The notes beneath the pieces are model-generated. The model saw only the letters and a program-made list of their open reading frames with translations. It made no database searches and was not told the origin of the DNA. A stretch of 64,000 bases of DNA from Halorubrum sp. BOL3-1 (GTDB taxonomy: Archaea > Halobacteriota > Halobacteria > Halobacteriales > Haloferacaceae): NCBI RefSeq assembly GCF_004114375.1, contig NZ_CP034692.1, forward strand, positions 1,116,001-1,180,000. The letters run 5' to 3'. The position numbers and the translations under genes are program-made. Positions 8,233 through 12,388 of the stretch are shown here, piece by piece (position 1 is the first letter of the stretch; every line of letters starts with the position of its first letter).

Positions 8233-8976
8233 TCAGTCGTCGTGCGTGGTCGGTTCGCCGGCCGTTCCGGGCTTCTCTCCCGGGGCCGTCGGAGTGTTGC
8301 CGCGCGCGAGGGCAGTCGGTCCCGTCCGCGCGATCTCGACGATGCCGAACCGCTCGAAGGCGCCGATCGCGTTGTCGACGTCCGTCTTGTCGCCGGTGAG
8401 TTCGACGGTGATCGTCTCCGAGCCGGCGTCGACCGTCTCGCCGTCGTACATCTCGGAGACTGCGTGGACCGCGGCCGGGTCGTCGGCTTCGACCTTCAAC
8501 AGGACCAGCTCCGAGGTGACCGCGTCGCCGGCGACCTCGCCCACCGAGATGACCGGCTTCAGCTTCGCGATCTGCTTTTCGATCTGGTCGATGCCGGGGT
8601 CCGTCTCCTCGACGACCATCGTGATCCGCGAGTGGCCCTCGACGGTCGTCGGGCCGACGGTAAGGCTCTCGATGTTGAACTGCCGGCGGGAGACGAGTCC
8701 GGAGACGCGCGTGAGCACGCCCGGCTCGTCCTCGACGAGCGCGGAGATGACGGCGCGCCGCGACTCGTGTTCGGCCTCGACGACGGGGTCGATTCGGATC
8801 CCTTCGAGGTTCCGGCGCCCCTCGGGGTGGTCGCGCTCGTCGGGACCGGGCTGCTCGCCCGGGAGAGGCCGGGAGTTCGCCTCCGGACTGCCGTCGGCGG
8901 CGGGGCCGCCGTCGGTCGCGGCTCGGGTGTCAGTCGCGTCCTCGTCCGCTCGGGAGTCGGGCGAGTCGCCGCTCAT
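8233..8976 (-). CDS. ilvN: Acetolactate synthase regulatory subunit
   Basis: The 247-residue protein carries an ACT domain (about residues 70-150: VISALVEDEPGVLTRVSGLVSRRQFNIESLTVG) and the C-terminal half typical of IlvN. It binds valine or leucine and tunes the catalytic subunit IlvB. A hydrophilic N-terminal extension of about 65 residues, rich in Asp, Gly and Pro, precedes the ACT domain and is not part of the bacterial protein. The ATG overlaps the ilvB stop by four bases (ATGA), which selects this start over longer frames. Confidence 0.92.
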   Translation of the reverse strand: MSGDSPDSRADEDATDTRAATDGGPAADGSPEANSRPLPGEQPGPDERDHPEGRRNLEGIRIDPVVEAEHESRRAVISALVEDEPGVLTRVSGLVSRRQFNIESLTVGPTTVEGHSRITMVVEETDPGIDQIEKQIAKLKPVISVGEVAGDAVTSELVLLKVEADDPAAVHAVSEMYDGETVDAGSETITVELTGDKTDVDNAIGAFERFGIVEIARTGPTALARGNTPTAPGEKPGTAGEPTTHDD

Positions 8977-10784
8977 AGCTGGTCCTCCACGGCCGCGAAA
9001 TTGCCGTTCGCACCGCCGCTCGGCACCATCGGCAGGACGTTCTCCTCGGGGTCGACGTGGAAGTCGACCACGGCCGGCCCGTCGTAGTCGAGGGCCTCCT
9101 CGACGGCGGGCGCGACCTCGTCGTAGTCGTCGACGCGCAGGCCGAGGGCGCCGAACGCCTCGGCCAGCTTGTCGAACTCGGGCATCCAGCTGTACTCGGA
9201 GGCCATGTGGCGCCCCTCGTAGAACGCGTCCTGCCACTGCCGGACCATCCCGATGTACTCGTTGTTCAACACCGCGACGGTGATGTCCAGCTCCTCGCGG
9301 ACCGCGACCGACAGCTCCTGCATCGTCATCAGGAAGGAGCCGTCGCCGTCGAAACACACCACGTCGCGGTCCTCCTCGCCCATCGTGTCGGCGGCGACGC
9401 GCGCGCCGACCGCCGCGGGCACGCCGTAGCCCATCGTCCCGAGGCCGTGCGAGGAGACCCACGTCCGCGGCTCCGAGTACGACCAGAACTGCGAGGCCCA
9501 CATCTGGTGTTGTCCGACCCCGGTCGTCACGACGGTGTCGTCGTCGGTCGCCTCGTCGAACGCCTCGACGACGAACTGCGGCTTCAGCGGCTCGTCGTCG
9601 GGGGTCGCGTACGTGAGCGGGTACGTCTCCTTCCACTCGGCGCAGCGCTCGCGCCACGCATCGGCGTCCGGCGCCTCCCGGACCGCCGCGGTCAGCTGGT
9701 CGAGGACGCGCGCCGCGTCACCGATGAGCGGGTAGTCGGCGTGGACGTTCTTGCTGATCTCCGCGGGGTCGATGTCGACGTGGACGACCTCCGCCTCCGG
9801 CGCGAAGGTGTCTATCCCGCCCGTCAGTCGGTCGTCGAACCGGGTGCCGACCGCGATCAGGCAGTCGGTGTGGGTGATCGCCATGTTCGCGTAGCCGGTG
9901 CCGTGCATCCCGGCCCACGAGAGGCAGAGGTCGTCGTCCTCGGGGAACGAGCCGATGCCCGGCATCGTCGTCGTCACCGGGACCCCGTAGCTCCGGGCGA
10001 ACGTCCGCGCCTCGTCGCTCGCGTCGGCCTTGATGACGCCGCCGCCGAACAGGCAGACGGGGCGCTCGGCCGACTCGATGGCGCGCGCCGCCTCCTCGAC
10101 CGCCTCGGCGTCCGCGTTCGGGTCGGGGTCGGTCCCCGCTGGCGGCGTCGCCGGCCCGGGCGTCTGGTCGGTCTCGTCCTGCGTCACGTCCTTCGGGAGG
10201 TCGACGAGCGTCGGACCGGGGCGCCCCGCCCGCGACAGCTCGAACGCCTCGCCGACGGTGTCGCCGACGGTGTCGGACCCGCCCGCGAAGTAGTTGTGCT
10301 TCGTGACGGGGCGGGTGACGCCGATCGTGTCGGTCTCCTGGAACGCGTCGTTGCCGACGAACTCCGTGGGGACCTGCCCGGTCAGCGCCAGCATCGCGTC
10401 CGAGTCCATGTCGGCGTCGGCGATGCCGGTGACCAGGTTCGTCGCTCCCGGGCCGGACGTGGCCATACAGAGACCGGGTTCGCCGGCGACGACGCCGTAC
10501 GCGTCGGCGGCGTGGGCGGCGCCCTGCTCGTGGGCCATCGTCACGTGCCGGATCGACGAGTCGTACAGCGCGTCGTAGACGGGCATGATCGCGCCGCCCT
10601 GAACGCCGAACGCGGTCTTCGCGCCCGCGGTTTCGAGGGCGGCGACGACCGACTCGGCGCCGGTCGAAACGGGTCTCGCGGTCTGTCCGTCGTCCGGGTC
10701 GGTCGGATCGTCGGTCGCGGTCGCCGCGGTCGAACCGTCCGAGTCGTCTCCGTCGGATCGTGGCTGAGCTGCTGTGTCGCTCAT
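8973..10784 (-). CDS. ilvB: Acetolactate synthase catalytic subunit
   Basis: The 603-residue thiamine-diphosphate enzyme condenses pyruvate with pyruvate or 2-oxobutyrate. After an acidic 40-residue extension come the N-terminal domain (TAFGVQGGAIMPVYDAL, HEQGAAHAADAYG with the catalytic glutamate) and the C-terminal ThDP motif starting GDGSFLMTMQEL and ending in NN. FAD-binding middle-domain sequence is also present. The gene follows a 382-base leader with its own promoter, a candidate leader peptide and hairpins (listed separately), so its expression is probably set independently of leuA. Confidence 0.95.
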   Translation of the reverse strand: MSDTAAQPRSDGDDSDGSTAATATDDPTDPDDGQTARPVSTGAESVVAALETAGAKTAFGVQGGAIMPVYDALYDSSIRHVTMAHEQGAAHAADAYGVVAGEPGLCMATSGPGATNLVTGIADADMDSDAMLALTGQVPTEFVGNDAFQETDTIGVTRPVTKHNYFAGGSDTVGDTVGEAFELSRAGRPGPTLVDLPKDVTQDETDQTPGPATPPAGTDPDPNADAEAVEEAARAIESAERPVCLFGGGVIKADASDEARTFARSYGVPVTTTMPGIGSFPEDDDLCLSWAGMHGTGYANMAITHTDCLIAVGTRFDDRLTGGIDTFAPEAEVVHVDIDPAEISKNVHADYPLIGDAARVLDQLTAAVREAPDADAWRERCAEWKETYPLTYATPDDEPLKPQFVVEAFDEATDDDTVVTTGVGQHQMWASQFWSYSEPRTWVSSHGLGTMGYGVPAAVGARVAADTMGEEDRDVVCFDGDGSFLMTMQELSVAVREELDITVAVLNNEYIGMVRQWQDAFYEGRHMASEYSWMPEFDKLAEAFGALGLRVDDYDEVAPAVEEALDYDGPAVVDFHVDPEENVLPMVPSGGANGNFAAVEDQL

Positions 10785-10861
10785 TGTCGTGGTGGTGTTC
10801 GGCGTGTCATCTGGCGGGTGGTGTCGGTCGCTGTGAACGCGGGACGGGCGGGGTCTCGGTT

Positions 10862-10904
10862 CCCGCGTCGGGAGCGGAGTTCCGCTCCGAGTCTGCGGGA
10901 CTCC
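10862..10904 (-). promoter_or_regulatory. Mutually exclusive hairpins in the ilvB mRNA leader
   Basis: On the minus strand a perfect inner hairpin GGAGCGGA-AC-TCCGCTCC (10889-10872) is enclosed by the stem TCCCGC/GCGGGA (10901-10896 with 10867-10862). The sequence just before it can instead fold as GAGTC-CCGCA-GACTC (10904-10890). The two outer pairings use the same bases and exclude each other, the kind of switch found in attenuators. No U-run follows, so an intrinsic terminator is not indicated; the switch would more likely act on translation or RNA stability. Confidence 0.45.
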
Positions 10905-10968
10905 ACGCGTCGGAAACGGCCCGGCCGCCGGCGTTCGGCGGTGCGTCGCGTCGGTGAGGAAGGGATGA

Positions 10969-10990
10969 TGTAGGGGATTAAACCCCTACA
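10969..10990 (-). promoter_or_regulatory. Perfect inverted repeat centred on the leader-peptide stop codon
   Basis: TGTAGGGG-TTTAAT-CCCCTACA reads as an eight-base-pair stem with a six-base loop. The TAA stop of the 24-codon leader frame occupies 10980-10978, the middle of the loop. In RNA it would be a stable hairpin that a ribosome reaching the end of the leader must open. As DNA it could also be a dimeric repressor site. The TTTAAT loop also resembles a TATA box on the minus strand, so a secondary promoter is a third reading. Confidence 0.6.
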
Positions 10991-11052
10991 ATGATCAGCG
11001 CGACGGCTGCGGGAACGTCCGCTCGCTCCGCGACCGCGGTGTGCCGTCGCAT
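10978..11052 (-). CDS. Candidate leader peptide of the ilvB operon (24 aa, branched-chain rich)
   Basis: An ATG about 29 bases after the centre of a TATAAA-type element opens 24 codons. The last eight residues are Val-Ala-Leu-Ile-Ile-Val-Gly-Val, so all three amino acids made by the downstream operon are represented (six of eight positions). The codons include CTG, ATC, ATT, GTA and GTT. The stop lies inside a perfect hairpin, and competing hairpins follow before ilvB. Bacterial ilvB and ilvGMEDA leader peptides have the same logic: ribosome stalling at Ile/Val/Leu codons decides RNA folding. I infer an analogous sensor here; nothing in the sequence proves translation. Confidence 0.55.
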   Translation of the reverse strand: MRRHTAVAERADVPAAVALIIVGV

Positions 11053-11076
11053 CTTGCTCTGAGTAACGCGGCCGGG

Positions 11077-11087
11077 GTATAAATTCC
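11077..11087 (-). promoter_or_regulatory. TATA box for the ilvB leader transcript
   Basis: On the minus strand the AT-rich element GAATTTATACC stands out in a GC-rich setting. Its TATAAA core (11079-11084) is centred about 29 bases before the leader-peptide ATG at 11052. Haloarchaeal transcripts normally start 22-28 bases after the TATA centre, so the mRNA should begin at or a few bases before that ATG. Confidence 0.65.
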
Positions 11088-11166
11088 TGTCGGGGAGCGC
11101 GAACCGACTCCTCCCGCGACCGCCCTCGCGGTCGCTCGGGGGGCGTTCGGGTCGTGGAGGCGGCCA

Positions 11167-12388
11167 TCAGACCCGGACCTCCTCCTCGCGCGCGACGTCC
11201 GCCTCCTCGGCGAACCGCTCAACGTCGCCGACGGTCACCTGCCGCTTGCCGGCGCCGTACTCCTTGACCCGCTTCGTGACCGTCCGGACCTCGCCGTCCG
11301 TCGGGTCGAAGCCGGCCTCTACCAAGTGCTTGCGCACGCTGTGGGTGCCGGTGTGTTTGCCCAACACGAACTCGCGTTCGGCGCCCACCATCTCCGGAGT
11401 CATCACGCCGGTCTCGAACGTGTCCGAGTTCTCGATGACGCCGGCGGCGTGGATACCCGACTCGTGGGCGAACGCGTTCCGTCCGGTGACGGGCTTGTTC
11501 GCCGGCACCGGGATGTCCGAGGCCTCCTCGACGATCCGGGCCAGCTTGGTTATCTGGGTCGTGTCGATGCCGGTGTCGACGCCGTACACCGATTCGACCG
11601 CCATCACGACCTCTTCGTAAGCGGCGTTACCGGCGCGCTCACCGATCCCGTTGACCGACACCTGCGCCTGCTCCGCGCCGTTCTCGAAGCCGGTGATCGC
11701 GTTGGCCGCGGCCATCCCGAAGTCGTCGTGGGTGTGGACGTCGACGCGGGCGTCGGTCGCCTCGACGACGGCCTTCACCGTCTGCCCGAAGCTGGTCGGC
11801 ATCCCGACGCCGCAGGTGTCGGGGATGTTGATCCAGTCGGTGCCCGCCTCGGAGACGGCCTCGACGATGTCGACCAGGTAGTCCGGGTCCGTCCGCGTGG
11901 CGTCCATCGGGGAGAACATACACTCGACGCCGGCGTCTTTTACCTGCTCGACGGCGTCGACGGCGCGTCCCTTCGCCTCCTCGCGGGTCGCGTGCATCGA
12001 GTCCTCCAGCTGGACGTCGCTGGTGGAGACGAACACGTGGACCATCTCGACGCCGGAGTCGATGGCGGCCTCGATGTCGCCCTCGACGACCCGCGCCAGC
12101 CCGCAGACGGTGGTGTCCGTCGCGGCGGCGATGTCGCTGACGGCCTCGAACTCCGCGTCCGAGTTGACCGGGAACCCCGCCTCGATGACGTGGGTGTTCA
12201 TGTCGTCCAGCGTCGCCGCTATGCGGCGTTTCTCGTCGTAGCTGAACGAAGTACGTGGCGACTGTTCTCCGTCTCGCAGGGTCGTGTCGAAGATCCGTAC
12301 AGGACCGATTTCGACGTTAGAAGCTATCGTGCCCTGGAAGAACTCGATCCGCCGGGGTGTCCGACGAAGCCTCCGTGATGTCTGTCAT
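11167..12388 (-). CDS. leuA: 2-isopropylmalate synthase, with an apparent N-terminal frameshift
   Basis: The enzyme condenses acetyl-CoA with 2-oxoisovalerate, the first committed leucine step. The conserved TIM-barrel begins RRIEFFQGTIASN, then VRIFDTTLRDGEQSP with the metal/catalytic residues, HTHDDFG metal ligands, and NGIGERAGNA. This frame has no ATG, GTG or TTG before MNTHVIEAGFPV at 12201, which would remove the catalytic DTTLRDGEQ segment. An in-frame TGA lies at 12387-12385. A leaderless ATG at 12388, with a TATA-like TTAAGTAC at minus 27, reads MTDITEASSDTP in another frame. Removing one base in the ACCCCGGCGG run (about 12350-12360) joins both into an intact protein. The stop is followed directly by the ilvB leader region. 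Confidence 0.8.

Follow-up and report, generated by a model that had tools for sequence, protein, structure and literature searches.

The DNA considered in this work is a stretch of 64,000 nucleotides from Halorubrum sp. BOL3-1 (contig NZ_CP034692.1, positions 1,116,001 to 1,180,000), referred to below as the window. On its minus strand, the genes are arranged in the order leuA, an interval, ilvB, ilvN and ilvC, with leuC, leuD and leuB lying further on; except for leuA, ilvB and leuC, these names are based on sequence resemblance only and no dedicated search underlies them. The features of the leuA-ilvB interval are listed in Table 1. The preliminary description of this DNA had reported a TATA box, a 24-codon frame beginning with ATG (viz. 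uORF1) and a branched-chain C-terminus reading Val-Ala-Leu-Ile-Ile-Val-Gly-Val, and these coordinates proved to be exact, with 31 nt between the start of the TATA box and the ATG. Its placement of the stop codon of this frame within a perfect 8-bp hairpin (10990-10969) is likewise borne out by the sequence. Given this TATA-to-ATG spacing, the leader mRNA should be leaderless, the transcription start being inferred here and not mapped.

Table 1. Positions of the leader and of the neighbouring features in the window (Halorubrum sp. BOL3-1)
Feature	Position	Strand	Remarks
leuA-type gene	11167..12201	-	HMGL-like and HCS_D2 domains, no LeuA_dimer allosteric domain; true start may be further upstream
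ORF2, 128-codon frame from leuA stop (TGATG) to ilvB start (ATGA)	10781..11167	-	Frame conserved, protein sequence not
TATA box TTTATA, internal promoter within the leuA-ilvB interval	11078..11083	-	TATA start to ATG, 31 nt
uORF1, leader peptide MRRHTAVAERADVPAAVALIIVGV, 24 codons + TAA	10978..11052	-	ATG at 11052-11050, TAA at 10980-10978; covariance-model matches in 382/391 Halobacteria
Control codons ATC-ATT-GTA (Ile20-Ile21-Val22)	10987..10995	-	Position 21 ATT or ATC; GTA invariant
Hairpin TGTAGGGG-TTTAAT-CCCCTACA, uORF1 stop in loop	10969..10990	-	Perfect 8 bp
G-free pyrimidine-rich tract TCATCCCTTCCTCACC, 3' of hairpin	10953..10968	-	Base composition, 79 loci
uORF2 (MTRRTPPRQ), internal ATG of ORF2 frame, stop overlaps ilvB start	10781..10810	-	ATG frames 68:5:2
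ilvB, acetolactate synthase large subunit, first gene 3' of leader	8973..10784	-	Three TPP-enzyme domains

A search with IlvB led to 80 named haloarchaeal loci, in which leuA is found upstream wherever the contig reaches that far, and 79 of the intervals were readable. The kinship among these 79 loci was not corrected for and no tree stands behind the counts. Across these relatives, a TATA-like box is present about 30-34 nt upstream of the leader ATG, and of the ATGs that come first behind this box, 63 of 64 share the reading frame of the control codons, which is more than expected by chance. The codons for IVG(A/V/G) are found in 78 of the 79 intervals while the N-terminal part of the peptide is free to vary, as is expected if the codons matter and not the fold of the peptide, and leaders of very different length share the same end. 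The nucleotide sequence AT(T/C)GTAGGGG is also present in 78/79 intervals, the exception being locus L048 (GTCGTAGTAGGGG), which reads R-V-V-V-G-A-V. The fixed Ile codon varies only by a T/C wobble (53 ATT and 25 ATC). The codons employed are rare ones, as GTA accounts for 2.3% of the Val codons and ATT for 0/87 of the Ile codons in eight ORFs of the window.

Further, a covariance model built from 60 of the 79 intervals was used to search one genome per species, and it matched all but nine of the Halobacteria genomes (382/391; 83/86 genera), usually once per genome. Outside the class, only 4 of about 206 genomes from the rest of the phylum were matched, with marginal E-values. The nine Halobacteria genomes without a match include two g28 genomes with a diverged copy, in which S-I-R-V-R-A is encoded together with GGGCC/GGCCC, one g17 genome with a diverged GTAGGGG copy and another in which the hairpin at the stop codon is a different one; the interval is lacking in three f11 genomes and an ilvB match in the remaining two. 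The leader is also possessed by Haloferax species. The preliminary description had proposed the leuA-ilvB intervals of relatives as the place to check its reading, and in these both the C-terminus of the peptide and the stop hairpin are conserved throughout the Halobacteria, so that the lack of conservation which it had named as a ground for refutation is not observed. As a separate observation, an orphan leader copy, ending in RLIVGV and carrying the same hairpin, is located at L125 (G123:C2:397900-397955), where only a short ORF and T-runs but no recognised gene follow downstream, and this is possibly a small RNA unit.

For the segment containing the hairpin, the median folding z relative to mononucleotide shuffles is -3.95, with values below -2 in 75/75 relatives with a usable interval. 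GTAGGGG(N)CCCC is found beside the IVG(A/V/G) codons in 78/79 intervals, and the length of the loop is variable among relatives. A covariation test of the 8-bp hairpin gave no significant result; however, as GGGG:CCCC is nearly invariant, this test is uninformative. The two g28 genomes (L313, L314) have a shifted GGGCC/GGCCC stem in which Gly is changed to Arg with the GTA codon and the hairpin retained, but this is a single such case. In the tract 3' of the hairpin (79 loci), G makes up 1-3% of the first 15 nt versus about 30% further on, and T shows a peak of 41% at +10 to +14, although the longest T-run is mostly 2-3. The earlier statement that no U-run follows the hairpins is right for the window, but the T-enriched, G-free tract is conserved at this place in relatives. 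A T-rich tract is not obvious behind the hairpins of pheS and trpS2 described below. The mutually exclusive hairpins suggested earlier for positions 10862-10904 could not be upheld, as in an alignment of close Halorubrum relatives this sequence is missing or replaced. A search of the leader against Rfam gave no family above the gathering score and only two chance-level matches, which are on the opposite strand. Hairpins of the form GGGGC(N1-8)GCCCC are rare genome-wide (35 places in G000 versus 162 for the pattern read backwards), and a scan of the window's own genome for more leaders with GGGGC..GCCCC hairpins yielded no candidate that was taken further.

The conservation of uORF1 at ilvB needs to be interpreted with caution, as uORF1 lies inside ORF2. 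The ORF2 frame is open in 79/79 upstream segments and in 69/75 downstream segments, and it extends from the leuA stop to the ilvB ATGA in 66/75. Its ATG is on or beside the leuA stop in 77/79 loci, with the phase kept in 77/77, and in most clades insertions and deletions 5' of the leader almost always have a length divisible by three. Due to this, the uORF1 frame at ilvB does not constitute independent evidence, as it could be frozen by the frame of ORF2. The openness and constant phase of this frame could even be taken to indicate that ORF2 is a real gene and that the conservation of uORF1 is only apparent. However, the codon positions of ORF2 evolve alike, with no third-position excess outside the leader, whereas the N-terminus of ilvB does show such an excess; the composition of ORF2 is Arg/Pro-rich; and at valS a leader is found without any ORF2. 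In view of these results, we regard a real ORF2 gene as very improbable. From its sequence, ORF2 looks like a translated spacer, which may be selected for its open frame only and would couple leuA to ilvB. The alternation of T and C in the third position of the fixed Ile codon, which is synonymous in uORF1 but exchanges Cys and Arg in the ORF2 frame, also points to uORF1. Frameshifting from uORF1 into ORF2 was also considered and set aside, as ORF2 is likewise open upstream of uORF1 to leuA at 79/79 loci.

A control for this confounding effect of ORF2 is provided by valS, upstream of which weaker second matches of the ilv-leader covariance model are located in several families, although not in Halorubrum and its close relatives, whose valS has no such leader. 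The valS leader frame starts about 30 nt behind an AT-rich box and ends in V-F-V-G-A, V-V-G-A or similar. ORF2 is absent at these loci and the distance from the motif to the gene start is random modulo 3 (7:7:7), yet 27 upstream ATGs share the frame of the control codons and only 3 do not. Ile is present in the last six residues of 76/79 ilvB leaders versus 0/13 valS leaders. Upstream of pheS and trpS, short frames behind an AT-rich box were scanned for with the residues ignored, and in the later detailed work frames were selected by their residue patterns. Leaderless frames ending in GFGFFF are found upstream of pheS in many families, in many cases with their stop codon at a hairpin (loci L190-L214), and W-R-W frames occur in many families upstream of trpS2, the second trpS, where a strong hairpin (CCGCTC..GAGCGG, followed by GGACAG) holds WRW or WRWW in its loop (L218-L229, L327, L328). 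The pheS and trpS2 leaders show the same layout as that of ilvB, with hairpins of their own and no shared sequence. Many genomes lack the pheS or trpS2 leaders, and no pheS leader was found in the window's own genome. The same scan upstream of ileS (29 loci), leuS (7) and trpC (29) revealed no cognate frames. The codon content of these frames follows the downstream gene at four families (viz. ilvB, valS, pheS and trpS2), and the cognate-codon leaders of the latter three provide independent support for interpreting the leader as an attenuator.

An uORF of 23 aa and 2743 Da in the 5'-UTR of H. volcanii trpS was found earlier through TSS mapping (Babski et al., PMC4983044). The 23-aa WRW peptides upstream of the same trpS gene in H. 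mediterranei (MVSTSHANCWRWHAFREVDSIAV) and H. larsenii (MVSTSRATCWRWRSTWEVDSIAV) have masses of 2703 and 2728 Da, and the reported uORF thus agrees with them in length and closely in mass. The uORF reported there for H. volcanii pheS (26 aa, pI 5.9) is unlike the basic GFGFFF peptides, and its identity with them is unproven. In the portions of that paper available to us, only lengths, pI and mass are given for these uORFs and neither cognate codons nor regulation are mentioned.

Based on these results, we consider it quite probable that the ilvB leader is a ribosome-mediated attenuator sensing the charging of tRNA-Val and tRNA-Ile, and often of tRNA-Leu as well, although there are no TSS, footprint or expression data for it. 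The proposal that a branched-chain leader peptide acts as an attenuator was made already in the preliminary description, and it is now strengthened by the class-wide conservation and by the cognate leaders of valS, pheS and trpS2. In the proposed mechanism, RNA polymerase would start within the leuA-ilvB interval at the ATG of the leader, as inferred from the TATA spacing, and a ribosome would begin on the leaderless uORF1. When amino acids are ample, the ribosome would pass Ile-Ile-Val, end at the stop and leave, and the GTAGGGG/CCCC hairpin is predicted to form. This hairpin and the G-free pyrimidine tract would then stop most transcripts before ilvB, either by termination or by the loading of a termination factor, which is an inference and the least certain step. 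Under starvation, the ribosome would stall with Ile or Val in its A site, covering the 5' arm and blocking the hairpin, so that ilvB would be expressed together with the genes that follow. In those relatives that have one, the valS leader would operate with the same hairpin and Val codons only, and those of pheS and trpS2 with Phe or Trp codons.

The step at which such a leader would act can be inferred only indirectly. The free leader RNA is predicted to form the stop hairpin, and in the stalled state the 5' arm is covered by construction when the A site of the ribosome is at Ile or Val. The predicted accessibility of the ilvB start is 0.59 in the free and 0.62 in the stalled state (mean change 0.026), and once the 5' arm is blocked, the median probability of pairing elsewhere is 0.04 for the 3' arm. 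As the accessibility is unchanged and the 3' arm has no other partner, classical refolding is unlikely, and masking of the start site by refolding is not supported. For the same reason, the translational or RNA-stability switch preferred in the preliminary description is not favoured, the predicted accessibility of the ilvB start being independent of the position of the ribosome. Hairpins of haloarchaea can terminate transcription without a T-run, the H. volcanii hairpin S12 giving 59% termination in vivo, and T-stretches with a C at their end bring about termination in H. volcanii (PMC7237163). The unchanged accessibility, the G-free and T-enriched tract and this reported termination at hairpins and T-stretches lead us to lean somewhat towards premature termination, perhaps factor-assisted, over a translational or stability output, but the output is inferred and not shown. 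The absence from the window of both a U-run and an antiterminator hairpin speaks against our main interpretation. It remains possible, although we think it rather unlikely, that the same sensor has another output, with the hairpin or the position of the ribosome governing the access of ribosomes to uORF2 and, through the ATGA coupling, to ilvB, or else attack by a nuclease. Such an output would suit the lack of a U-run in the window and the presence of uORF2 with its ATGA overlap, which is intact at ilvB in 59/75 relatives and found at 16/21 valS loci; however, the small predicted change in accessibility does not favour it, and several Halorubrum lineages lack uORF2 yet retain the leader.

Two other explanations dispense with the sensing of tRNA charging, and we regard both of them as improbable. 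The palindrome could be the binding site of a repressor or RNA-binding protein, with the short frame being incidental, and GTAGGGG..CCCC is indeed much more strictly conserved than would be necessary for a hairpin as such. However, the spacing of the arms and the distance to the promoter vary widely, the frame is conserved at valS, cognate codons are found at four gene families, and what pheS and trpS2 have in common is the layout but not the sequence. The fixed C-terminal IVGA/IVGV of the ilvB leaders could likewise be understood if the nascent chain were an arrest peptide sensing the free amino acid in the exit tunnel. It is difficult to reconcile this with the N-terminal and middle residues, which would line the tunnel, varying freely while only the last few codons are fixed, with SIRVRA replacing IVGA in the g28 genomes, or with the presence of the same end on leaders of very different length.

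A further observation concerns LeuA itself. In the lineages without a leader (L320-L323; families f5 and f11), leuA extends up to ilvB, and in those tested (L320 and L321; one f5 and one f11 genome) LeuA retains the LeuA_dimer allosteric domain (PF08502), whereas LeuA of the leader-bearing lineages, including that of the window, lacks this domain. It is tempting to infer from this that RNA-level control has replaced protein feedback, but the genomes are few. In the widest reading, for and against which we find the case evenly balanced, haloarchaea possess a multi-gene regulon of leaderless leaders responding to tRNA charging (Val/Ile at ilvB, Val at valS, Phe at pheS and Trp at trpS2), which would be the first archaeal ribosome-mediated attenuation, and which at ilvB occupies the place where the LeuA allosteric domain is found in other lineages and is threaded by a frame-conserved but sequence-free ORF carrying ribosomes from leuA to ilvB. 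From the leaders of the branched-chain and tRNA-synthetase genes together, it is probable that archaea employ a stalled-ribosome sensor so far known from bacteria only. If this is true, archaeal transcription and translation are coupled tightly enough for gene regulation, single-hairpin attenuation without an antiterminator exists, and the regulation of several archaeal genes for tRNA synthetases becomes understandable. Since Haloferax has the leader and H. volcanii is genetically tractable and grows in defined medium, the claim lends itself to a direct test.

In bacteria, attenuation by a stalled ribosome is a textbook mode of regulation. In the leader-peptide attenuators of the enterobacterial ilv, leu, trp, phe and his operons, the biosynthetic genes are preceded by a hairpin and by a short ORF that has cognate codons close to its end, and pheS of E. 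coli is also subject to attenuation. The haloarchaeal leader resembles these in having cognate codons near the end of its ORF, a hairpin in the control region and a biosynthetic operon downstream. However, it differs from them in that its ORF is leaderless, there is one hairpin over the stop with no antiterminator partner, and in the window no U-run is present. Of the features that define the trp/ilv type, a short leader ORF with regulatory codons for the product of the operon is present, as judged from sequence and conservation with translation inferred, but mutually exclusive antiterminator and terminator hairpins are not, in view of the low probability of alternative pairing for the 3' arm and the lack of conservation of the downstream hairpins. 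To our knowledge, there is no archaeal case of ribosome-mediated attenuation, and the open-access literature searched, which leaves out most subscription papers, contained none and nothing on HVO_1509. Branched-chain codons in a leader, described as the ilvB-II motif or uORF, regulate the ilvBNC operon of Corynebacterium (PMC10272879, PMC11857589). That leader differs in being bacterial and in following a three-hairpin model, but it is similar to the haloarchaeal leader in that an uORF with branched-chain codons is located upstream of ilvB.
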